From: Verrucomicrobia bacterium LP2A
Lineage (GTDB): Bacteria > Verrucomicrobiota > Verrucomicrobiia > Methylacidiphilales > Methylacidiphilaceae
Direction: 5' to 3'
Length of the DNA: 64,000 bases
Assembly (NCBI GenBank): GCA_000526255.1
Contig: JAFS01000002.1
Span: forward strand, 868,001 to 932,000
Each line of letters opens with the position of its first letter. The first letter of the stretch is position 1. Below the pieces are notes generated by a model, which ran no database searches, was not told the DNA's origin, and worked only from the letters and a program-made list of their open reading frames with translations. Shown here in pieces: positions 30,444 to 40,909 of this stretch. The translations under genes and the position numbers were made by a program.

Positions 30444-31538
30444 ATGGCGGCGTTCCGTGTCGGAATCCTCACGAGCGGCGGAGACTGCCCGGGTCTCAAT
30501 GCGGTGATCCGTGCTGTGGTTGCGGCCTCCTCTCAGCGCGGCTGGGAGGTCTTCGGGTTTATCGATGGCTTCGAGGGGCTCCTCTCTCCGGTCCGCTATC
30601 GAGTCCTCGAGGATGCCGCGACCGTGGGGATCGCGAGCCTCGGCGGCACCATCCTGGGCACGACCAACCGCGGCCGATTTGCGACCCGAGTTGGGCTTGG
30701 CGAAATCCACCAGATTCCCAAGGCGGTGCTCGACGAGGTGTGGGAGACGGTCGAGGGTCTGGAAATTGGAGGACTGATTTGCATCGGAGGGGATGGCTCG
30801 CTCACCGCCGCCCAGCAACTCTTCGAGGCGAAGCTACCGATCGTCGGCGTTCCCAAGACGATCGATAACGACATCTCGGCCACCTCGATCTCCTTTGGCT
30901 TCTACTCGGCCGTCGAGTTTGTCACTCAGGCTCTTGACCGCCTGCGTTCGACGGCGGTCAGCCACAAGCGGGTCATGGTCGTCGAGGTCATGGGAAGGTA
31001 TGCAGGTTGGATCGCGCTCTTTGGCGGCCTGGCAGGGGGTGCGGACGTGATCCTTTTGCCGGAGATCCCCTTCCACTATGAAAAGATCGCCCATGAGGTG
31101 CGCAAGCGCGTCGCGGAAGGGGCGCTGCAGACGATGATCGTCGTTGCGGAGGGGGCTCGTCCGAGTCACGGCCAGTTTGTGACGCAAGACGACGAGACGG
31201 AGAAGGGATTCCTGGGGGAAATTCGGCTGGGAGGAATAGGCCGGCATGTAGCCAAGATGGTCGAGCAGATGACCGGCCGGGAGAGCCGGGAGGTCGTGCT
31301 CGGACATCTCCAGCGAGGCGGTCCTCCCACGGCGCTCGATCGGAATCTCGGAATGCTCTTCGGGGTCGCCGCCGTGAAACTTGTAGAGCAGAAACGCTTT
31401 GGAGAGATGGTCGCCTTTCAGAACGAGCGCGTGGGGTCGGTGCCGATTCAGGATGCGATCCGGCAAAACAAGACCGTTCCGCTCGATTGCGAGGAGATCG
31501 CCGCCGCGCGCGCGGTCGGCATCGCGTTCGGGGATTGA
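30444..31538 (+). CDS. 6-phosphofructokinase (PfkA family, probably ATP type)
   Basis: A 364-residue phosphofructokinase of the PfkA superfamily. TSGGDCPGLNAVIR binds phosphate, PKTIDNDI and MVVEVMGRYAGW are active-site loops, and VLGHLQRGGPPTALDR binds fructose phosphate. The glycine of IGGDGS (G118 here, equivalent to G104 of E. coli) favours ATP as donor, whereas PPi enzymes have aspartate there. The lysine of PKTIDND (K138, equivalent to position 124) is the residue seen in PPi enzymes and in the mixed long PFK group that includes ATP-using actinobacterial enzymes. ATP use is therefore likely but not certain. Confidence 0.9.
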   Translation: MAAFRVGILTSGGDCPGLNAVIRAVVAASSQRGWEVFGFIDGFEGLLSPVRYRVLEDAATVGIASLGGTILGTTNRGRFATRVGLGEIHQIPKAVLDEVWETVEGLEIGGLICIGGDGSLTAAQQLFEAKLPIVGVPKTIDNDISATSISFGFYSAVEFVTQALDRLRSTAVSHKRVMVVEVMGRYAGWIALFGGLAGGADVILLPEIPFHYEKIAHEVRKRVAEGALQTMIVVAEGARPSHGQFVTQDDETEKGFLGEIRLGGIGRHVAKMVEQMTGRESREVVLGHLQRGGPPTALDRNLGMLFGVAAVKLVEQKRFGEMVAFQNERVGSVPIQDAIRQNKTVPLDCEEIAAARAVGIAFGD

Positions 31539-31590: not shown

Positions 31591-32160
31591 TCATTGAGGA
31601 ACGGTCATCGGAGGAACCGAGCCCCAGGTATTGCTCCAGCCCCTCCAGGGATAACCCCAGACCCAATCTCGCCTTGGGTAGCCCGCAGAGTCGCGTTGCC
31701 CTCCGTATTGGGGCCACAAGTGGATCTCCGTCGCGGCGATCAGGGGGTAGGTGTAGGGCCGATCGCCGATCTGCCCCGCCTGTGCACCAACGACGTGCCC
31801 CAAAACCGTGACATCGCGTCCCTTGCGATAGACGGACGGATCCAGGAAAGTCGAGCTCCTTGCGAGGAAACGGCCGCCGATCCGGTCGGAGGTGATCGGT
31901 CGATCGGAGCCGTCAAGCCGCTCCTGGAGAACTTCGAGCAGTGTACCCGCCTCGAGGTTCGTCGTTCGCGTGATCGCACCTCCGAGCATGACGATGCGGC
32001 CCTGGTAGGAAGAGGGCTTCTGCACAAGCGCGCTGAAGGAAGGCTGATCGTGGATCCGCTTCTTCTCTTCGCCGGCAAATGGGCTGCCGCAGCCGGCAAG
32101 AAGTACCGCAAGAGCAAGGCAACCGATTGCCCTCCCCTCGCCTTCGAAGAGCCGATTCAT
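31591..32160 (-). CDS. Slp-family outer-membrane lipoprotein, copy A
   Basis: A 189-residue lipoprotein of the Slp family (E. coli starvation lipoprotein). MNRLFEGEGRAIGCLALA leads to the lipobox LLAGC. Conserved core: QPSFSALVQKPSSYQGRIVM, GGRFLARSSTFLDPSVYRKGRD and the end PYTYPLIAATEIHLWPQYGG, followed by a W/Y/P/G-rich tail. The function of Slp proteins is not defined; E. coli slp is induced in starvation and acid stress. This is the most downstream of four tandem copies (54 bp after copy B), all on the minus strand. The frame is open far upstream, but the signal sequence fixes the start. Confidence 0.85.
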   Translation of the reverse strand: MNRLFEGEGRAIGCLALAVLLAGCGSPFAGEEKKRIHDQPSFSALVQKPSSYQGRIVMLGGAITRTTNLEAGTLLEVLQERLDGSDRPITSDRIGGRFLARSSTFLDPSVYRKGRDVTVLGHVVGAQAGQIGDRPYTYPLIAATEIHLWPQYGGQRDSAGYPRRDWVWGYPWRGWSNTWGSVPPMTVPQ

Positions 32161-32213
32161 CGACGCAGTTCCTCTTCCGATCCCTACGAACGCCGCTCCC
32201 TTCGAGCCTCCGC

Positions 32214-32774
32214 TTACCAGAAGGTCATCGGGGGCATCATGGGCCAGCCCATGCCCCAATCCATCCCGGGATAGCCCCAGCCCCACTCCACCCGTGGATC
32301 GTTCCAGTGGTCGTCCTCCACGTGCTCGCGCCACAGATGGATGCCTGTCGCGGCGATCAGGGGATAGGTGTAGGGTCTCTCCCCGATTCGGCCCGGCTGG
32401 CGCCCGACTACGCGTCCGACGATCGTGACCTCGCGGCCCTTGCCATAGACCTTGAGGTTGAGAATGGTCGAGGTACCCGCCACGAAGCGGCCTCCCGTCT
32501 GATCGGAGGCGATCGGTCGGTCGTAGGCATTGAGCGCCTTCTCGAGCACTTCCAGATAGGTGCCGCGGTTGCGATGTTTGGCGTAGAGGATAGTTCCGCC
32601 GAACATCACCGTTCGGCCCCGGTAGGCAGAAGGATTGCCTCGAATCACCGCGAAGGAGGGTTGATTCTGGACCTCCTGCTTCACCTCGTTGGGAAATGGG
32701 CTGCAGCCGACGCCGACCAGGGCGAGGAGAGCGAGAACAAACCGCCCCTCCCTCCTCCGGAAGAACGAGTTCAT
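32214..32774 (-). CDS. Slp-family outer-membrane lipoprotein, copy B
   Basis: A 186-residue paralog. The start MNSFFRRREG at 32774 has a GGGGAGGAT site; a hydrophobic helix ends in VGVGC, an acceptable but non-ideal lipobox. Core motifs match the other copies: QPSFAVIRGNPSAYRGRTVM, GGRFVAGTSTILNLKVYGKG and PYTYPLIAATGIHLW. It diverges most at YGKGREVTIVGRVVGRQPGRI. The tail ends WGWGYPGMDWGMGWPMM. It has its own 351 bp upstream gap, so it may be transcribed separately from copies C and D. Confidence 0.85.
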   Translation of the reverse strand: MNSFFRRREGRFVLALLALVGVGCSPFPNEVKQEVQNQPSFAVIRGNPSAYRGRTVMFGGTILYAKHRNRGTYLEVLEKALNAYDRPIASDQTGGRFVAGTSTILNLKVYGKGREVTIVGRVVGRQPGRIGERPYTYPLIAATGIHLWREHVEDDHWNDPRVEWGWGYPGMDWGMGWPMMPPMTFW

Positions 32775-33125
32775 CGATTTCGATCCTCCCCGGGGGATTT
32801 GGATCGGCACGCGGAGCCGGCTTCGGCATTCACGGATCGCCAAGCGGCATTCTACCCGCTCTTTCTTGCCGGTGCGAGCTTTCGTGCATGGGAAAGCCGA
32901 GAAAGGCAGATAGGCTCGCTAAAGAGAATCTTCGGCGGGCAGGGGGAGTTTCTTCGAGTATGCGGACGGGGGATTTAGATTTTAGGAAAGGAAAGGGATG
33001 AGGTGCGGAGCGCAGCCGGTTTCGTTGTGTGCGTTACCTGCCGGGTCGCGGTGATACCGGAGCTGCGGACGGGCGGCAGCTGGGAGGCGATGCAAGGCTC
33101 AATGGGACTACTCCCACCAAGAGGA
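32775..33125. other. Gap between Slp copies B and C
   Basis: No gene is seen. On the minus strand a TAAAAT hexamer occurs near 32975-32985 and could be a -10 element for copy B, but there is no convincing -35 partner. The stretch probably holds the copy B promoter and the end of the copy C transcript. Confidence 0.35.
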
Positions 33126-33680
33126 CTACCACCAAGGGCCGAAGCCCCACCCCATGCCCATTCCCATCCCCGGGTAGCCCCAGCCCCACCCCATGCCGGG
33201 ATAGCCCCAGTAGGAGTCGCCGGCCGTGTATTGCGGCCACAAGTGGATGTGAGTCGCGGCGACCACGGGATAGGTGTAGGGCTTTTCGCCGATCACCCCC
33301 GGCTGGGGCGCGGCTAGGCGTCCGACGACCGTGACGTCGCGTCCCTTGCTGTAGACTGACGGGTCGAGAAAGGTCGAGGTTCGTACAAGGAAGCGCCCGC
33401 CGATCTTATCCGAATCGATCGGTTGATCGGAGCTGTCGAGCTTTTCTTGGAGTACTTCGATCAGGGTGATGTCCTTGAGGTTCTTCGTTTGGGCGATCGT
33501 CCCTCCGAGCATGACCATTCGACCCCGGAAGGCGGAAGGGTTGTGCCGAATCGCGGCAAAGGACGGCTGACCTTTCACCTCCTCTTTCACTTCGCTCGAG
33601 AACGGGCTGCAGCTGGACAGGAGCGTCGCAAGAATCAGGCAAGCGACAGACCGCGGCCACTCCTGAAATCGCGGATCCAT
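33126..33680 (-). CDS. Slp-family outer-membrane lipoprotein, copy C
   Basis: A 184-residue paralog, with MDPRFQEWPRSVACLILATLL then the lipobox LSSC. Conserved QPSFAAIRHNPSAFRGRMVM, GGRFLVRTSTFLDPSVYSKG and KPYTYPVVAATHIHLW are present. The last 25 residues form a striking W/G/M/Y-rich tail (YPGMGWGWGYPGMGMGMGW is part of it) that no housekeeping Slp protein has to my knowledge. It begins 22 bp after copy D stops and is likely cotranscribed with it. Confidence 0.85.
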   Translation of the reverse strand: MDPRFQEWPRSVACLILATLLSSCSPFSSEVKEEVKGQPSFAAIRHNPSAFRGRMVMLGGTIAQTKNLKDITLIEVLQEKLDSSDQPIDSDKIGGRFLVRTSTFLDPSVYSKGRDVTVVGRLAAPQPGVIGEKPYTYPVVAATHIHLWPQYTAGDSYWGYPGMGWGWGYPGMGMGMGWGFGPWW

Positions 33681-33702
33681 ACAAGCAAATCCCTTCTGCC
33701 GT

Positions 33703-34269
33703 TCACCACATGCCGAAACCCGGCATCCCGAAGCCCATCCCCGACCCCCACATGCCCGGCTCGTAGCCCCAATTCATCATCGCCCAGTCGTAATCCGACC
33801 CCACGCTGCTCTCGGGCTGCCAGAGATGGATCTGGGAAATCGAGACGACAGGGTAGGAGTAGCTTCTCTTCCCGATGGTTCCCGGCTGAATGCCGCTGAC
33901 GCGGCCGGCCACGGTGACCTCGCGGCCACGCTTGTAAATGGAAGGATCGAGGAACTTGGGAGTCACGGCGAGAAAACGCCCGCCCGATTGGTTGGTCGAG
34001 CTTGGGCGTTCGTCGCCTCCCAAGGGCCTTTGGACGATTTCCAGGACAGTCGCATTCTTCCGGTTCTGGATTTGGGCGATTTTCCCACCGAAGATCACAA
34101 GCCGATTCTTGTAGGCGGCGGGATCCTGACGGAGGGCTCCGAAGGAGGGCTGGTCCTTAGCGGCCTCCACGGTGGATTCGGAAAAGGGCCCGCCACATCC
34201 CGCGAGGCTGCTGAGCAGAACTACCGCCAGAGCCACGCCGAGAGGAAACCGCACTTGTATGCTTCTCAT
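33703..34269 (-). CDS. Slp-family outer-membrane lipoprotein, copy D
   Basis: A 188-residue paralog, first of the tandem set in transcription order. MRSIQVRFPLGVALAVVL leads to the classic lipobox LAGC. The core has QPSFGALRQDPAAYKNRLVI, GGRFLAVTPKFLDPSIYKRG and SYPVVSISQIHLW. It is the least W-rich at the tail but still ends MGFGMPGFGMW. The start at 34269 is chosen for the signal; the open frame extends 45 bp upstream. Divergent from the TonB-like gene, with the promoters in the 180 bp between. Confidence 0.85.
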   Translation of the reverse strand: MRSIQVRFPLGVALAVVLLSSLAGCGGPFSESTVEAAKDQPSFGALRQDPAAYKNRLVIFGGKIAQIQNRKNATVLEIVQRPLGGDERPSSTNQSGGRFLAVTPKFLDPSIYKRGREVTVAGRVSGIQPGTIGKRSYSYPVVSISQIHLWQPESSVGSDYDWAMMNWGYEPGMWGSGMGFGMPGFGMW

Positions 34270-34448
34270 CGTGATTGACCTATGGGCGATCGGCGGTCCC
34301 TCCGTCAAGGCCAAAGCGGCCTTCCGCGAGCATGGACGAGCTCATCCTTCGAGCGGCAAAAATGTCTTTGGCGGCAACCGGATCCGTGCGAATGTATGCC
34401 GTTGCCAAACGGTTGCCTACGGGCGGTGGGACAGGAAAAGATCAGGGG

Positions 34449-35096
34449 ATGGAACGGAGAAGGTGGATCGCTCTTTTGGCCTCCGTGGCGCTTCATGCGG
34501 GCATCCTGCTCGGATCCGATGCCTGGGTCGTCAAACGGGCCGAGTATGGGATGGCGCTGGGGCAGAACTCGGTCGCCGTCGACCTGGTAGAAGGGGCGGC
34601 CGAACCGGAAGCAACACCGCAACCGCTTCCGCAGCCCGAACCGTTGGTTAAGCCAACGCCCGAGGAGATGGCGCAGGCGGTCGAGCAGAAGCCCACTCCC
34701 GTGGCCGCGATGCCCAAGGAGCCGGAAAAGGCTGCGCGCAAGTCCCATTCAGTGGCTGCGCGAGGGAAGGGCGTTTCGGGAGCGGGGCAGGACGCGATTA
34801 CCTTGAGGCGCGCAAGCGGCACCAGCGCCCAGCCGGACTATCTCAACAACCCGCCCCCTCCTTATCCCGAGGAGTGCCGCTGTCGGGGGCAGCAGGGAAC
34901 GGTGGTGGTGAAGGTCCTGGTCTCTCCTCGCGGAATGGCGCAATCGGTCGCGCTGAGCCGAAGCTCGGGGTTCGGCCCGCTCGATCGCGCCGCGCTTGAG
35001 GCGGTCCGGCGGTGGCGGTTTCGGGCGGCAACGATGGGAGGGCTCCCCATCGAGTCCTATGTGATGGTTCCGATTCGCTTCGTCCTCGAGAATTAG
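34449..35096 (+). CDS. TonB-like periplasm-spanning protein
   Basis: A 215-residue TonB-family protein: a short cytoplasmic end, one N-terminal helix (WIALLASVALHAGILLGS) with the conserved histidine, a proline-rich linker (QPLPQPEPLVKPTPEE), and a C-terminal TonB domain ending with SSGFGPLDRAALEAVRRWRF and YVMVPIRFVLEN. TonB transmits proton-motive force from ExbBD to outer-membrane receptors; no exbB or exbD is near. The start MERRRWIAL at 34449 is chosen because of the AGGGG site and the helix; the frame is open 174 bp upstream. It could serve any receptor in the cell. Confidence 0.8.
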   Translation: MERRRWIALLASVALHAGILLGSDAWVVKRAEYGMALGQNSVAVDLVEGAAEPEATPQPLPQPEPLVKPTPEEMAQAVEQKPTPVAAMPKEPEKAARKSHSVAARGKGVSGAGQDAITLRRASGTSAQPDYLNNPPPPYPEECRCRGQQGTVVVKVLVSPRGMAQSVALSRSSGFGPLDRAALEAVRRWRFRAATMGGLPIESYVMVPIRFVLEN

Positions 35097-35122: not shown

Positions 35123-35899
35123 TCAGGTCCTGACCTGGATGTCCTCGTAGGCGGCCCAGCCGATGAGAGTAAAGGGAACCGATTGGACAGCGAAGAAAAG
35201 CAGCAAAAGGAAGAGCCGTAGGCGGGGAACGAGCTTCGGTGTCTGCTCATCGAGCTCCCGCTTGATGTAGTTGGCGACAATCTCGATTGCCCGACTGCTC
35301 GGATAGATCGATGACACACCGGACCAAAAGTATCGCTGTACGTCCCGGGAGACGGCCTCTTCCGCCGCGCCAGTCCGTACGGAGAGAATCCAGCTCAGGA
35401 AGGGATGCATCCGCTGGAAGTTCCGAGCGGCACTCTTCGCGTAGATTTTGGCGACGACGAACTTCGTATTTGGGTTATTGAGCGGGACGACCGGGGCTCC
35501 ACTCTGATCTTGCCAGAGGGCCGGGGTGTGCGGCTCCTGGCCAAACTGCCAGACGGTCTTCCGAGCCTCCTGGAAGGTGCTGTCTGCCCAGGCTTGGTCG
35601 ACCTGAAGTGAGGTGGCCCAATGATTGACGAACTGCTCACCGGCTGTCTTTGCATGACTGAGGGCGAAATAGAGGAGTACGCCCAGTAAGGTGGCCAGTG
35701 CGGCGACACCGCAAAACATGTGGTGAATCGGGCTCGCGTGAAAGAGGAGATTCCAGAGCTTGGTGTAGTTACTCGCCAGCCACCAACAGCCGCCCGCCAG
35801 GAGAACGGCGATCACACAGGCCAGCACGAACTGCCCCGTTGCCTCGAGCAGGAAAAGAAGGATGCAGGAGCTGGTTACGGTGATCAGATCTCCGATCAT
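35123..35899 (-). CDS. Membrane protein of unknown function beside the tubulin-like operon
   Basis: A 258-residue protein I do not recognise. Predicted transmembrane helices are near residues 8-45 (two), 62-85 and 225-250, with a soluble central domain (about 90-220) containing AGEQFVNHWATSLQVDQAW and YFWSGVSSIYPSSRAIEIV. It shares a 320 bp divergent intergenic region with the tubulin-like gene, which suggests a functional link, but no motif confirms it. There is no signal peptide or lipobox. Confidence 0.6.
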   Translation of the reverse strand: MIGDLITVTSSCILLFLLEATGQFVLACVIAVLLAGGCWWLASNYTKLWNLLFHASPIHHMFCGVAALATLLGVLLYFALSHAKTAGEQFVNHWATSLQVDQAWADSTFQEARKTVWQFGQEPHTPALWQDQSGAPVVPLNNPNTKFVVAKIYAKSAARNFQRMHPFLSWILSVRTGAAEEAVSRDVQRYFWSGVSSIYPSSRAIEIVANYIKRELDEQTPKLVPRLRLFLLLLFFAVQSVPFTLIGWAAYEDIQVRT

Positions 35900-36218
35900 A
35901 GGGAGGCCTTCGGGTTGTAAGGAGAGGGAGAGGGGCGAGTCAAGACGCAGGGTAGCCGCTCGATGCGTTCTTGATCGGTGTTTCCCCGGCGTCTTTCCAG
36001 GAGAAGAGACGCTCGCAAGGCTTCAAAGCAAAAGGGATTGCTTTTTTTTCCTGCGCGGGTAATCCGATTCAGGATAGCTCTCGATCGCAATCGATTTTTC
36101 TGGAGCGGAGGAAGTTTCCCCAGTTGACGCGAAAAGGGGAGAATCGGTCGGCGAAAGCATCGGCAAGGGGAGGGTCGGACGGTTTGAATCAAAGCAGGAT
36201 ACCAGGCGAATTGGATTG
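35900..36218. promoter_or_regulatory. Divergent intergenic region with leader structures
   Basis: It separates the membrane-protein gene from the tubulin-like gene and must hold promoters for both. On the plus strand it shows a stem GCGTCT (35989-35994) with AGACGC (36007-36012) enclosing an AGGAG, and the same GCGTCT could alternatively pair with AGACGC at 35943-35948. A T-tailed stem follows at 36025. A TTGACG at about 36124 resembles a -35 hexamer but has no clear -10. Confidence 0.4.
36025..36049 (+). terminator. T-tailed stem inside the tubulin-operon leader
   Basis: AAAGCAA (36025-36031) pairs with TTGCTTT (36038-36044) across a six-base loop and is followed by five more T residues. 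The shape is that of a plus-strand intrinsic terminator, though the stem has only two G-C pairs. No plus-strand gene precedes it within 900 bp, so it may be an attenuator of the downstream operon, end a small RNA, or stop read-through from the TonB-like gene. Confidence 0.45.
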
Positions 36219-39200
36219 ATGAATCCCAACCACATGATTATCGGCCTCGGCGGAACGGGAGGCAAAATCATCCGCGCCGTCCGAAAGACTATCTTTCAGG
36301 AATTTCGAAGCTTGAGCCCGGAAGAGGTGAGCGTCGGGTATCTCTACGTCGATTCGAGCGATGAGTTGATGCGCCTCGACGATCCGACCTGGAAGATCCT
36401 GGGGCAGAGCGTTCAGCTGGGCCCGAGCAGCCAGCTTCACATTCGGTGCGCCAACCTCTCGTCCATTCTGGAAAACCTGACCAACTACCCGGGAATCCGC
36501 CCGTGGATCGGCGATCGCGCGATCTGGAACGATATCTTGGGAGGGATCGTGGGTGATGCGATCGGCGGACAGAAACGGAGGCTCGGCCGATTCCTCTTCG
36601 CCAACCATGCGACCGAGTTTTGCGATCGGCTGACCGCGCAGGTGCGCGAGCTCCAATCCGGCGGGGAGGCCAGCGTTACCTTTCACGTCTGCACCGGTCT
36701 TGCGGGAGGGACGGGAAGCGGGACGATCGTTGACACCCTTTGTCAGATTCGGCGCCTCTATCCCGATTCGCTGCAATATCGCATCATCGGGTATCTCCTC
36801 CTTCCCGAAGAGCATCCGAAGCCCAATTGGAACACCGGGAACTACCATGCCAACGGCTATGCGGCGCTGGCGGAGCTCAACGCGCTGAGCATCGGGAAGT
36901 TCGTTCCCTGCAACATTGCGGGCAACGGCGGCAAGATGACTGATCTGCAGACGCCGTTCAACGGCGCCTATCTCTTTACGACTCACAACGAGAACGGGCT
37001 CGCGCTCGGCGTCGACGACATTCCGAACGTGGTCGCGGATTTTCTCTATCAGAAGATCGTCACAGTCCGAAAGGTGAACTGGGCGAGCCTTGCCCGGCAG
37101 GAAAATGCGGAAAATGGAGACGGGATGCCCGAAACCGTCCCGGGAACCAATAGCGGCGTCCGATCCAAAAGGTGGCTCACCTTCGGCGTGAAGAGGATCG
37201 CCGTGCCGGAGGAAGAGATCGCCGAATATCTCGCCTACCAGTTTGCCCGGCAGGCGGCCCTGCAGCTCCGCTACAACAACTGGTCGGAGACCGAAGGCTA
37301 CCTCCCCAACGCGAAGAACGTCGATCTGATGAGCTACGTCGCCGCCCCGGAACAGCTCGAGCGGTGGCTCCTTTCCGATGAGCACCTGATTTTATCGGCC
37401 GCCGTCCTGGAGGCGGATGGAACGCAGGGCCGATGGCAGCCGATCACTCGGTACTGGACGACCGTTGCCGGGGCTTTTAAGCGGGAGATCGAGGAGAGGG
37501 AGGAGGGAGCCAAGTGGCTCGACAGCCTAAAGGGGAGGCTCGAGGTCCGTTTCAGCGATCAATACCGCGGGCACGGCGTAAAAGCCTTCTATCAGACCGT
37601 GTCGGCCTCCGCTCGGGAGCGGGCGCGTGAGATCCGGCAGAAGCTCGAAAGAGAGCTTTTCGGCAACTGGCGCGATGGCATTCGGTCCGTTCATGAGATC
37701 AGCGGCCTGGTCGGTGCTGTGATCATCTATTTACGCAACCGCTTCGAGCGCTTCGACGACGATGTGACGAAAGCGAAGTCGCAGGAGGAGGCTCTCGCCA
37801 AGAAACTCAAGGATCAAGAGAAGGAGTGGGTGAAGGTCGGCGTCATTTCCGACATGTTCGGGAAACGGAAGCGGATCTTCGACACCTGTGCTTTGACGCT
37901 CCAGGACCTCTACGCCGCCCGGACCCGCATCGAAGGCTGGCAGTTCGCCAAGAAGTTTACCCCGGTTCTCATCGAAGAGATCACCCAATTGAAAGCCGAG
38001 CTCGACCGAAGCTCGGCGATGATCTCGGAGGCGGTCAAGAGTTTCGAGGAGCAGATCGCCGAGCGTTGCATCGACGAGGGTGGGGAGGTCGACTATCGCA
38101 ACCAGATCATCCGATTCTATGACCCGGACCTGGTCCGGACGGTGACGCGAAGGTTGACCAAGGACGCACGAGAGCAGCTCACGCAGACGCAGCGCGTGCG
38201 CTCCGCGCTCGTGGCCATGCTCGGCGACAAGCTCGATTTCCGCACCTTCAACGAGCGAATCAACCGAACGACCTTCTTGGACGTGCTCGAAAACCAGTGC
38301 ATGGAGAATGCGAAGATCTCTCACAACAACCTCATCGAAAGCAGCAAGGAGAAGCTGATCGGTGTCAGCATCATCGACAAGCTGCGCGACCGGTATGGCG
38401 ATCGGCAGGCGCTCCGGCTCTTTATCGACGGAATCGTCAAGGCCGCCGGCAACTACTTGATTTTCAGCCCGGACGAGATCAAGAGATCGGCCCCCGGAAT
38501 CAATCCGGGAGCGCAAGTCTGTGTCTCGACCTTCACGGTGATCCTTCCCAGAGCGCCAGAAGCGGAGGATTTCGTGAAGATGCTGCGGGAGGTCTTTTGG
38601 GAGTGCGTGCAGACGACGGCTCGGGAGTTTCTGGATGGTAGCCGACCCAACGAGATCATCTTGACTAGCGTCACGAATCTTTTTCCGCTTCGCGTCGTCC
38701 AGCTGCTCTCCTTTCTCCGGGCTCGCTATCTTGAGCGGGTGAATGGTCCCAATCCGGCGCGGGCCCGGATGGAGATTCATATCGAGGATGACGGGCAAAC
38801 CCTTCCGAGCGTCTTCCTCCCGAGCCGGGGGGAGCTCCAGGACCGCGTTGCGCCCTGTCTGCTTCTCGGCAGCGCCTTGGGGCTGGTGGCCGATCGGGAA
38901 AACGAGCGGGGTGTGAAGGAGCTGGCGATGATCGTGAAAGACGAATTTGGGATCGAAACGCCGGTCTTCCTGGAAGGAGCGACGATTCCCGAAACGTTAG
39001 TCAACCTTCCCGAACCGAAGGCTCTCGTCTTAGAAGAAACGGTGGGCAAGCAGCTCGCCGATCCGGAGCTGCGTCGGGAGCCGAGGCGTACCGAGCTGAC
39101 CCAGAGGTTAGCCGCCATGGTCAATGAGCTCTCGCGTCAGCTTCCTCCTTCGGATCCCCGGACCAAGCTTTTTCCGGACTGGGGGCGGAGGGCGATCAAG

Positions 39201-39221
39201 CTTCTCCGCGGGGAGGGATAG
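36219..39221 (+). CDS. Large tubulin/FtsZ-like protein (Tubulin_2 type)
   Basis: A 1000-residue protein. The N-terminal 300 residues look like a tubulin/FtsZ GTPase fold of the Tubulin_2 type: GLGGTGGKIIRAVRK (residues 9-23) is the first nucleotide loop and GLAGGTGSGT (160-169) is the tubulin signature that binds the nucleotide phosphates. A charged, probably coiled-coil segment (REIEEREEGAKWL and KSQEEALAKKLKDQEKEW) lies at about 420-560 and a long uncharacterised helical C-terminal part follows. No transmembrane helix. Family members have been suggested to remodel membranes; the role here is unknown. The start ATG at 36219 follows a TTG at 36216. It heads a three-gene plus-strand cluster. 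Confidence 0.82.
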   Translation: MNPNHMIIGLGGTGGKIIRAVRKTIFQEFRSLSPEEVSVGYLYVDSSDELMRLDDPTWKILGQSVQLGPSSQLHIRCANLSSILENLTNYPGIRPWIGDRAIWNDILGGIVGDAIGGQKRRLGRFLFANHATEFCDRLTAQVRELQSGGEASVTFHVCTGLAGGTGSGTIVDTLCQIRRLYPDSLQYRIIGYLLLPEEHPKPNWNTGNYHANGYAALAELNALSIGKFVPCNIAGNGGKMTDLQTPFNGAYLFTTHNENGLALGVDDIPNVVADFLYQKIVTVRKVNWASLARQENAENGDGMPETVPGTNSGVRSKRWLTFGVKRIAVPEEEIAEYLAYQFARQAALQLRYNNWSETEGYLPNAKNVDLMSYVAAPEQLERWLLSDEHLILSAAVLEADGTQGRWQPITRYWTTVAGAFKREIEEREEGAKWLDSLKGRLEVRFSDQYRGHGVKAFYQTVSASARERAREIRQKLERELFGNWRDGIRSVHEISGLVGAVIIYLRNRFERFDDDVTKAKSQEEALAKKLKDQEKEWVKVGVISDMFGKRKRIFDTCALTLQDLYAARTRIEGWQFAKKFTPVLIEEITQLKAELDRSSAMISEAVKSFEEQIAERCIDEGGEVDYRNQIIRFYDPDLVRTVTRRLTKDAREQLTQTQRVRSALVAMLGDKLDFRTFNERINRTTFLDVLENQCMENAKISHNNLIESSKEKLIGVSIIDKLRDRYGDRQALRLFIDGIVKAAGNYLIFSPDEIKRSAPGINPGAQVCVSTFTVILPRAPEAEDFVKMLREVFWECVQTTAREFLDGSRPNEIILTSVTNLFPLRVVQLLSFLRARYLERVNGPNPARARMEIHIEDDGQTLPSVFLPSRGELQDRVAPCLLLGSALGLVADRENERGVKELAMIVKDEFGIETPVFLEGATIPETLVNLPEPKALVLEETVGKQLADPELRREPRRTELTQRLAAMVNELSRQLPPSDPRTKLFPDWGRRAIKLLRGEG

Positions 39222-39280: not shown

Positions 39281-40909
39281 TTGGGAGATATGCCGGGTAG
39301 ACGAGGCCTTTGTCAGAATTACGGAAATTGTCCGACGCGCGCGGATACGCGCGAGGTCATGGAAATTCCCGAAGGCAAGGAGTTTGTCTGCCCGGACTGT
39401 GGGAGCCCTCTGGTGCCGGAAGAAGAGGCCAATCGCCGTCCGAGGAGGAGGAGAAAGCGAGGAGTCGTGCTCTTCCTGCTGCTCCCGCTGTTGGTTTTCG
39501 GCGGGAGCGTGCTCTGGCTCATTCTTCGCGGGCATCCGCAACCTGCTGTCGCTCCGGCTCCCCAATCCTTGCCCCCGTCCCGGAAGGTCCCTCCCGCGGC
39601 CGAGCGGACGCTCTTTACGATTGCCGGCTCGCGCATCTTGGGGGGCAAGCTTGTTCCTGATCTGGTGAGGGCTTTTCTCTCGGACGAGCTTCGAGCGGAC
39701 GGAGTCACCATGCGGCGGGAAAAAGACGGACAGTCCCTTGCGGTCGTGGGGAAGGTGCCCGACGGGAAGGAAGAGATTGCTGTCCGGATCGTTTGCTCGA
39801 GCACTTCTGACGGATGGAAAGATCTGGCGGGCGATGGGGCGCAGATCGCGATGGCCTTTCGCAAGATTACTCCGGAGGAGGCGGCGCTCTGCGGCAAGAC
39901 GGTCAACCTCACGGCTCCGGATTCCGAGCATGTCATCGGGGTCAGCGGTGTCGTGGCCGTCGTTTCGGCCGCCAATCCGGTTTCGAAGATCTCTTTGGCC
40001 GAGCTGCGCAAGATCTTCGGAGGACCAGTGGCAGACGGCAAGGCGGTTGGCTTCCCTCCGGGAAAAATCGTCCTCTATGCTTCTCCGTCCGCCTCGGGGA
40101 GCTGGCAGCTCTTTTCCCGACACGTGCTGGAGGGTTCTCCCGGATCGGCCGACATCATCCGCCTGGAAAACGGAGCGGAGATCTCCTCTCGAGTCTCGGC
40201 CGACGCGCACGCCCTGGGAATCGTTGACTTTCCTCACGTCGGGAGTTGTAAGCCCTTGGCCCTTTACGAGAAGGGAACCATGCCTCTTGCCCCGACTTTC
40301 GTATCGCTCGAGTCGGAGGCCTACCTCCTTTCGACCCGACTCTACCTCTACACCAAGGGGAGCGGACAAAATCCCGATGTCGACGCCTTCATTCAATTCG
40401 TTCTCTCCGATCGAGGGCAGCAGGAGGTGCAGAAGGCGGGCTTCGTTGGGGCGGCGACGAAGTCCGGCAACGGGGCCGAGTCCTTGATTCAACCGGAAAC
40501 GGCAATCCCGCACGATGCTCCCGCAGGGTACCGGGAGCTCGTCAAGGGGGGAAACCGAGTCGCCTTCGACGTCCGTTTTCGGACCGGGAGTGCGGAGTTG
40601 GACAACAAGGCACTCGTCGACATCCGGCGTCTGGCGAAGCTGATGGGCGAAAGGGAAGAGAAGAGCCAAGCGGTTCTCCTGATCGGGTTTACGGACAACG
40701 TGGGGGATCGCGCCTATAACCTACCCCTTTCGGTCGAACGGGCGCAGAGCGTCGGGCAGGCGCTTCGTGTCCTGGGCATCCCCGTTGCGGCGACCGCGGG
40801 AGAGGGAGACCAGATGCCCGTAGCCTCGAACGGCACTCCGGAAGGCCGGGAGAAGAATCGCCGCGTCGAGCTTTGGATCGTCCGCGGGAAGGCTTCCGAG
40901 AAGCCTTGA
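39281..40909 (+). CDS. Zinc-ribbon / TM / PstS-like binding domain / OmpA fusion
   Basis: A 542-residue protein with an unusual domain order. Cytoplasmic ribbon: C11, C17, C37, C40 (CQNYGNC ... CPDC). Then a basic stretch RRPRRRRKR, one helix (61-83), a proline linker, a periplasmic-binding-protein-like domain (about 108-400; PstS-type with FTIAGSRILGGKLVPDLV and SLESEAYLLSTRLYLYT) and a C-terminal OmpA/peptidoglycan-binding domain (about 420-535; FDVRFRTGSAELDNKALVDI and GFTDNVGDRAYNLPLSVERA, ending REKNRRVELW). The protein probably anchors in the inner membrane and contacts the cell wall. The start is TTG at 39281 (AGGAG five bases upstream) or ATG at 39290. It begins 60 bp after the tubulin-like gene. 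Confidence 0.8.
   Translation: MGDMPGRRGLCQNYGNCPTRADTREVMEIPEGKEFVCPDCGSPLVPEEEANRRPRRRRKRGVVLFLLLPLLVFGGSVLWLILRGHPQPAVAPAPQSLPPSRKVPPAAERTLFTIAGSRILGGKLVPDLVRAFLSDELRADGVTMRREKDGQSLAVVGKVPDGKEEIAVRIVCSSTSDGWKDLAGDGAQIAMAFRKITPEEAALCGKTVNLTAPDSEHVIGVSGVVAVVSAANPVSKISLAELRKIFGGPVADGKAVGFPPGKIVLYASPSASGSWQLFSRHVLEGSPGSADIIRLENGAEISSRVSADAHALGIVDFPHVGSCKPLALYEKGTMPLAPTFVSLESEAYLLSTRLYLYTKGSGQNPDVDAFIQFVLSDRGQQEVQKAGFVGAATKSGNGAESLIQPETAIPHDAPAGYRELVKGGNRVAFDVRFRTGSAELDNKALVDIRRLAKLMGEREEKSQAVLLIGFTDNVGDRAYNLPLSVERAQSVGQALRVLGIPVAATAGEGDQMPVASNGTPEGREKNRRVELWIVRGKASEKP

Follow-up and report, generated by a model that had tools for sequence, protein, structure and literature searches.

Four minus-strand genes for Slp-family lipoproteins lie side by side at 31591-34269 of the window, that is, of the whole 64,000-nucleotide stretch of DNA analyzed here, and this array did not come from a recent burst: it is old and occurs throughout the genus. 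Its members, termed D, C, B, and A in order of transcription, represent four ortholog groups that are older than most of the species splits in the genus. We hold with moderate confidence that they are specialized paralogs, outer-membrane barrier lipoproteins that grew from a tonB-linked ancestor and are not kept for dose. Slp expansion as such is already known in these organisms, because copy numbers and duplication have been described (PMC2474590, PMC9543262); as an arrangement of a known family, the array is genuine, conserved, and modestly unusual.

Identity and layout of the array

All four proteins scored above the cut-off of the Pfam model for Slp (PF03843; E values from 3e-38 to 7e-45) and of the NCBIfam model TIGR00752, and this agreement excludes chance for the family assignment. 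The genome has seven Slp matches in total, four in the array and three dispersed. The profiles and coordinates (Table 1) confirmed the initial annotation in its main points, namely Slp identity, tandem layout, minus strand, and strong divergence of the four copies. The motifs that it proposed as common to all copies hold in part: Y/F.GR is present in A, B, and C, and D reads YKNR; the FLDPSVY-type motif occurs as FLDPS[VI]Y in A, C, and D but reads ILNLKVY in B; IHLW is present in all four proteins but is not their C terminus, since about 30 more residues follow it. The longer open reading frame of 412 residues for A is a read-through from upstream, and A likely starts at the ATG at 32160.

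Table 1. Slp array and its immediate flanks (coordinates of the window)
Feature	Coordinates	Strand	Remarks
Slp copy D	33703..34269	-	First transcribed, divergent from tonB; lipobox LAGC followed by G; OB-type core; Met/Gly/Trp-rich tail
Slp copy C	33126..33680	-	Lipobox LSSC followed by S; dN/dS 0.08, most constrained; 22 nt after D
C-B gap, 351 nt	32775..33125	.	Break between two inferred transcription units
Slp copy B	32214..32774	-	ILNLKVY variant; dN/dS 0.17; conserved tail
Slp copy A	31591..32160	-	53 nt after B; core dN/dS 0.35, least constrained; tail strongly conserved; absent in 2 relatives
pfk (phosphofructokinase)	30444..31538	+	PF00365; flanks the array in the genus, in convergent orientation
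TonB-type protein	34275..35096	+	PF03544; divergent flank; tonB divergent from Slp in both genera

Canonical lipoboxes have Leu at position -3, and Asp is absent from position +2 in outer-membrane lipoproteins. As read from the sequence, the lipobox Cys is present in all four array proteins and is followed at +2 by Gly (A and D) or Ser (B and C), in no case by Asp; B has Gly instead of the canonical Leu at -3. The lipobox and the lack of Asp at +2 suggest an outer-membrane setting: after export and lipidation at the Cys, each protein would be anchored in the outer membrane, its OB-type barrel lying in the periplasm.

The gene spacing (Table 1) suggests that the array looks like two co-transcribed units, D-C and B-A. 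This reading is based on the gap lengths and on one relative (G004) in which about 2 kb has been inserted at the C-B junction (L038:1381-3330); judging by their sequences, the inserted genes are presumably one MarR-like and two VOC-like. A promoter and terminator scan of the array region was uninformative, with no sigma-70-like site found (0.7 expected), and comparison of the upstream regions of C and B for a common element yielded only loose similarity. On the tonB side of the array, a large tubulin-like protein (PF13809) is encoded at 36216-39221 of the window on the plus strand; its identity is 90-97% in the four congeneric relatives with contigs that include it. It is directly followed on the same strand (39281-40909) by a gene for a phosphate-binding-like domain (PF12849) fused with an OmpA domain (PF00691). 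The interval between tonB and the tubulin-like gene encodes a 258-residue protein without a Pfam match (35123-35899, minus strand), which is conserved in the four congeneric relatives with contigs long enough to include it.

Age and conservation of the array

The host genome belongs to the genus of the acidophilic methanotrophs Methylacidimicrobium cyclopophantes 3B and M. tartarophylax 4A; the sister genus includes Methylacidiphilum sp. Yel. The gene order pnp-prx-pfk-[array]-tonB is kept across the host genus: pfk adjoins the array in all six relatives examined, and tonB also does so in the four whose contig reaches that far. In a tree of 70 Slp sequences, each of the four ortholog groups is common to the species of the genus. 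Copies C and B are present in all seven genomes, and D is whole in six, our own included, and truncated at the edge of a contig in the seventh (G003). Copy A is intact in four genomes and absent in two (G001 and G005), where B directly adjoins pfk. In G003, A is broken by one in-frame TAG, which may be an error; the coverage given in the name of this contig is about 1.9x. Because G001 branches outside the other species for both B and C, A may postdate the divergence of G001 and may never have existed there; G005 probably lost it. The 70-row tree left out five fragmentary Slp rows (three from the G003 array locus L037, one from L056, and one from L066), and the trees and dN/dS estimates contain no G003 row for D or A. 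The G004 rows arr3 and arr4 of the 70-row tree correspond to copies A and B, because they were sorted by ORF start.

The initial annotation had suggested a recent expansion, and a species-specific burst under acid stress is what the tandem layout might bring to mind. We consider this extremely improbable, since it fails the divergence part of the criterion that the initial annotation itself set: these copies are present at the corresponding locus of relatives, and they diverged long ago. A tree constrained to group this genome's four copies is worse by 397 log-likelihood units (AU test, P = 9e-30), which rejects species-specific duplication, and forcing copies A-C of two genomes into species-specific groups gave P = 1e-71; these P values and those of the other AU tests below are indicative, because the groups were named after the first tree was seen. 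Synonymous differences among the copies in this genome, 0.47-0.77 per site, likewise speak against a recent origin.

In a second tree, with outgroups added and tails removed, C is not one clean clade, and the C copy of G001 stands apart; holding C together was not rejected by the AU test (P = 0.39). An origin of the whole array after the split from Methylacidiphilum gave P = 0.21. Groupings of D with either of the two Methylacidiphilum copies (D+M1 and D+M2) and of A-D as one clade were neither rejected nor well supported; D may have separated from A-C either before or after the divergence of the two genera. In the five genomes of the sister genus, a tonB has one or two divergently oriented Slp genes next to it; in the two loci inspected, Slp and tonB are separated by a small gene. 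The array probably grew stepwise from the tonB-linked locus that Methylacidiphilum also has. A sliding comparison revealed patches where two copies from the same genome resemble each other more than at least one of the two resembles its best ortholog; of the 28 such windows listed, 27 involve C, chiefly in G004 and G001. Such patches are the expected sign of short gene conversion events, nearly all involving C, that would blend the copies locally. As a result of conversion, duplications can look younger than they really are.

Constraint, tails, and probable roles of the copies

The copies are under unequal purifying selection, as shown by core dN/dS in the same four species, which rises from C through D (0.10) and B to A (Table 1). 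A second difference among them lies in the tail that follows IHLW, which is about 30 residues long and enriched in Gly, Trp, Tyr, and Met. Between paralogs from the same genome no part of the mature protein differs more than the tail, with 12-46% identity, versus mean core identities of 43-66% (amino acids, four genomes). Between species, tail versus core identity is 86% versus 69% for A and 80% versus 77% for B. In a codon-level comparison of four species, pN is 0.174 in the core and 0.086 in the tail of A, and 0.102 and 0.028, respectively, in B. Tail pS is normal (0.46-0.57, from only 15-21 synonymous sites per pair), and thus the constraint in the A and B tails acts on the protein. With all six species included, the contrast in B shrinks (core 0.141 versus tail 0.104). 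Only 1 of 96 core windows in A, and 8 of 96 in B with six species, are as conserved as the tail. C and D show no contrast between tail and core, as 87 and 48 of 96 core windows, respectively, are as conserved as the tail.

The core is predicted to be a five-stranded OB-type barrel. The AlphaFold model (31 rows) has five strands and a pLDDT of 79.7; Foldseek returned 26 OB-fold matches with E values of 0.001 or less, and VIA gave Z scores of up to 10.2 over 103 residues at 3.3 Å. The OB domains of SSB, PriB, and tRNA synthetases top both searches, and sharing a fold says nothing on function. In the model of copy C, pLDDT falls below 50 from residue 150, and the tail is predicted to be disordered. 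A search for solved structures related by sequence gave none for P0003, and a search with the alignment gave three weak matches, all with E values above 0.2. The one literature match for Slp combined with OB-fold was irrelevant, as SLP there denotes a serine-containing lipobox.

These observations can be set against two other accounts. The initial annotation had raised dose-dependent use, by which functionally equivalent copies would be kept to raise total Slp at extreme pH. On the one hand, the tandem layout, the three further Slp copies elsewhere in the genome, and local gene conversion that keeps stretches alike all fit this idea. On the other hand, the low identity of both cores and tails within a genome, the unequal constraint, and the conservation of tails within each paralog weaken it, and we judge it unlikely. 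About equally unlikely, in our judgment, is birth-and-death drift, in which function would rest with C and D, and B and A would be superfluous copies in slow decay. The absence of A in G001 and G005, its in-frame TAG in G003, and its high dN/dS are what such decay might look like, but purifying selection still acts on A and B, the protein sequences of their tails are strongly conserved, the stop in G003 may be an error, and A may never have existed in G001.

Under our preferred reading of specialized paralogs, the array and the dispersed copies would together adjust how well the outer membrane withstands protonated acids and related stress at pH 1-5. Specialization of the paralogs would come from their tails, through contact with a partner or with the membrane, with C and D as core copies and A as the most dispensable one. 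A link of the array to acid is plausible. A more specific version, in which a common OB-fold module in these barrier lipoproteins is joined to distinct, conserved, disordered Gly/Trp/Tyr/Met tails that each address a different partner or envelope layer, is a tentative idea that we lean against at present; if true, the tail rather than the fold would be the functional variable of Slp proteins. The tails, being paralog-specific and constrained, are the part of the array worth an experiment. A conserved array with graded constraint offers a natural comparison between copies that matter (C and D) and one that can be spared (A), and it points to the part that sets them apart (the tail).

Slp copy number and comparison with known systems

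Slp was found in all 13 genomes returned for the host family, with two to seven matches each. In the phylum sample it is present in 8 of 387 genomes, 7 of which belong to this acidophile family. The statement of the initial annotation that Slp is usually single or double copy fits the gammaproteobacterial sample, where Slp was detected in 95 of 369 genomes and 90 of these have one or two matches (one match in 36, two in 54, three in 4, and four in 1); it does not extend to Nitrospirota, where 53 of the 146 genomes with Slp (198 sampled) have 3-10 matches. Thus, copy number cannot be taken as acid-specific. Two adjacent Slp genes are present in seven of the eight outgroup loci (L104-L111), and tandem pairs are ordinary outside the phylum. 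Among the 58 genomes with at least three matches, many of them fragmented assemblies, inspection by eye revealed no run of more than two close Slp neighbors on the same strand. A separate clade of dispersed Slp proteins (L047, L051, L052, L057, L060, and L063) is without an obvious lipobox Cys, and several of its members have MGMYGPMG-type repeat tails.

Multicopy Slp in these organisms was published in 2008 and 2022 as a proposed acid-resistance trait. According to the accessible parts of these papers, M. infernorum has six Slp paralogs (PMC2474590, from 2008), slp copies number five to seven, with seven in Methylacidimicrobium, and gain by transfer followed by rampant duplication was proposed (PMC9543262). 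The latter source also proposes the link to acid, while stating that little is known about the Slp mechanism; acidophile papers, in the portions available, invoke Slp as a first line of defense, and a proposed block on the entry of organic acids is cited in PMC7231039. As far as their accessible text goes, PMC2474590 and PMC9543262 give Slp copy number, a tree, and one aguAB context. In the literature searched, supplements aside and some sources available only in part, we found nothing on the four-gene array or on its orthology, constraint, or tails; nor did the searches find papers pairing Slp family lipoprotein with tandem, or expression reports on the array genes. One candidate paper (PMC10260701), judging from its available part, concerns another lipoprotein, not Slp.

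One of the closest known systems is the multicopy Slp of Methylacidiphilum and Methylacidimicrobium: the family and the organisms are the same, and seven copies are found here too. In M. fumariolicum, the available text of PMC10205796 reports 9.7-fold induction by H2S of the Slp-type gene MFUM_v2_1951, which lies beside a gene for an 89-kDa heptahaem protein induced 15.7-fold. In two of the genomes examined (G008 and G010), an ORF of 810-820 residues with seven CxxCH motifs is directly upstream of a dispersed Slp gene (L073:420-3512 and L081:358-3481). This layout matches the H2S-induced pair as described there, whereas the tonB-linked copies are without that neighbor. By analogy, the H2S-induced gene may serve as a precedent for specialization and hints that the copies do not all share one role; it warns that not every Slp copy is an acid gene. 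The carbon-starvation-inducible outer-membrane lipoprotein Slp of E. coli, our control, was matched by the family search and is like the array proteins in belonging to PF03843 and TIGR00752 and in its lipoprotein signal. Its gene is reported to lie in an acid fitness island (PMC9543262 and PMC7231039, in their accessible parts), whereas here a four-gene array sits beside tonB and pfk. Tandem Slp pairs of Proteobacteria and Nitrospirota, such as slp-1/slp-2 of Acidihalobacter (PMC9062700, accessible portion), are arranged head to tail like the array, but they are pairs, and here there are four.
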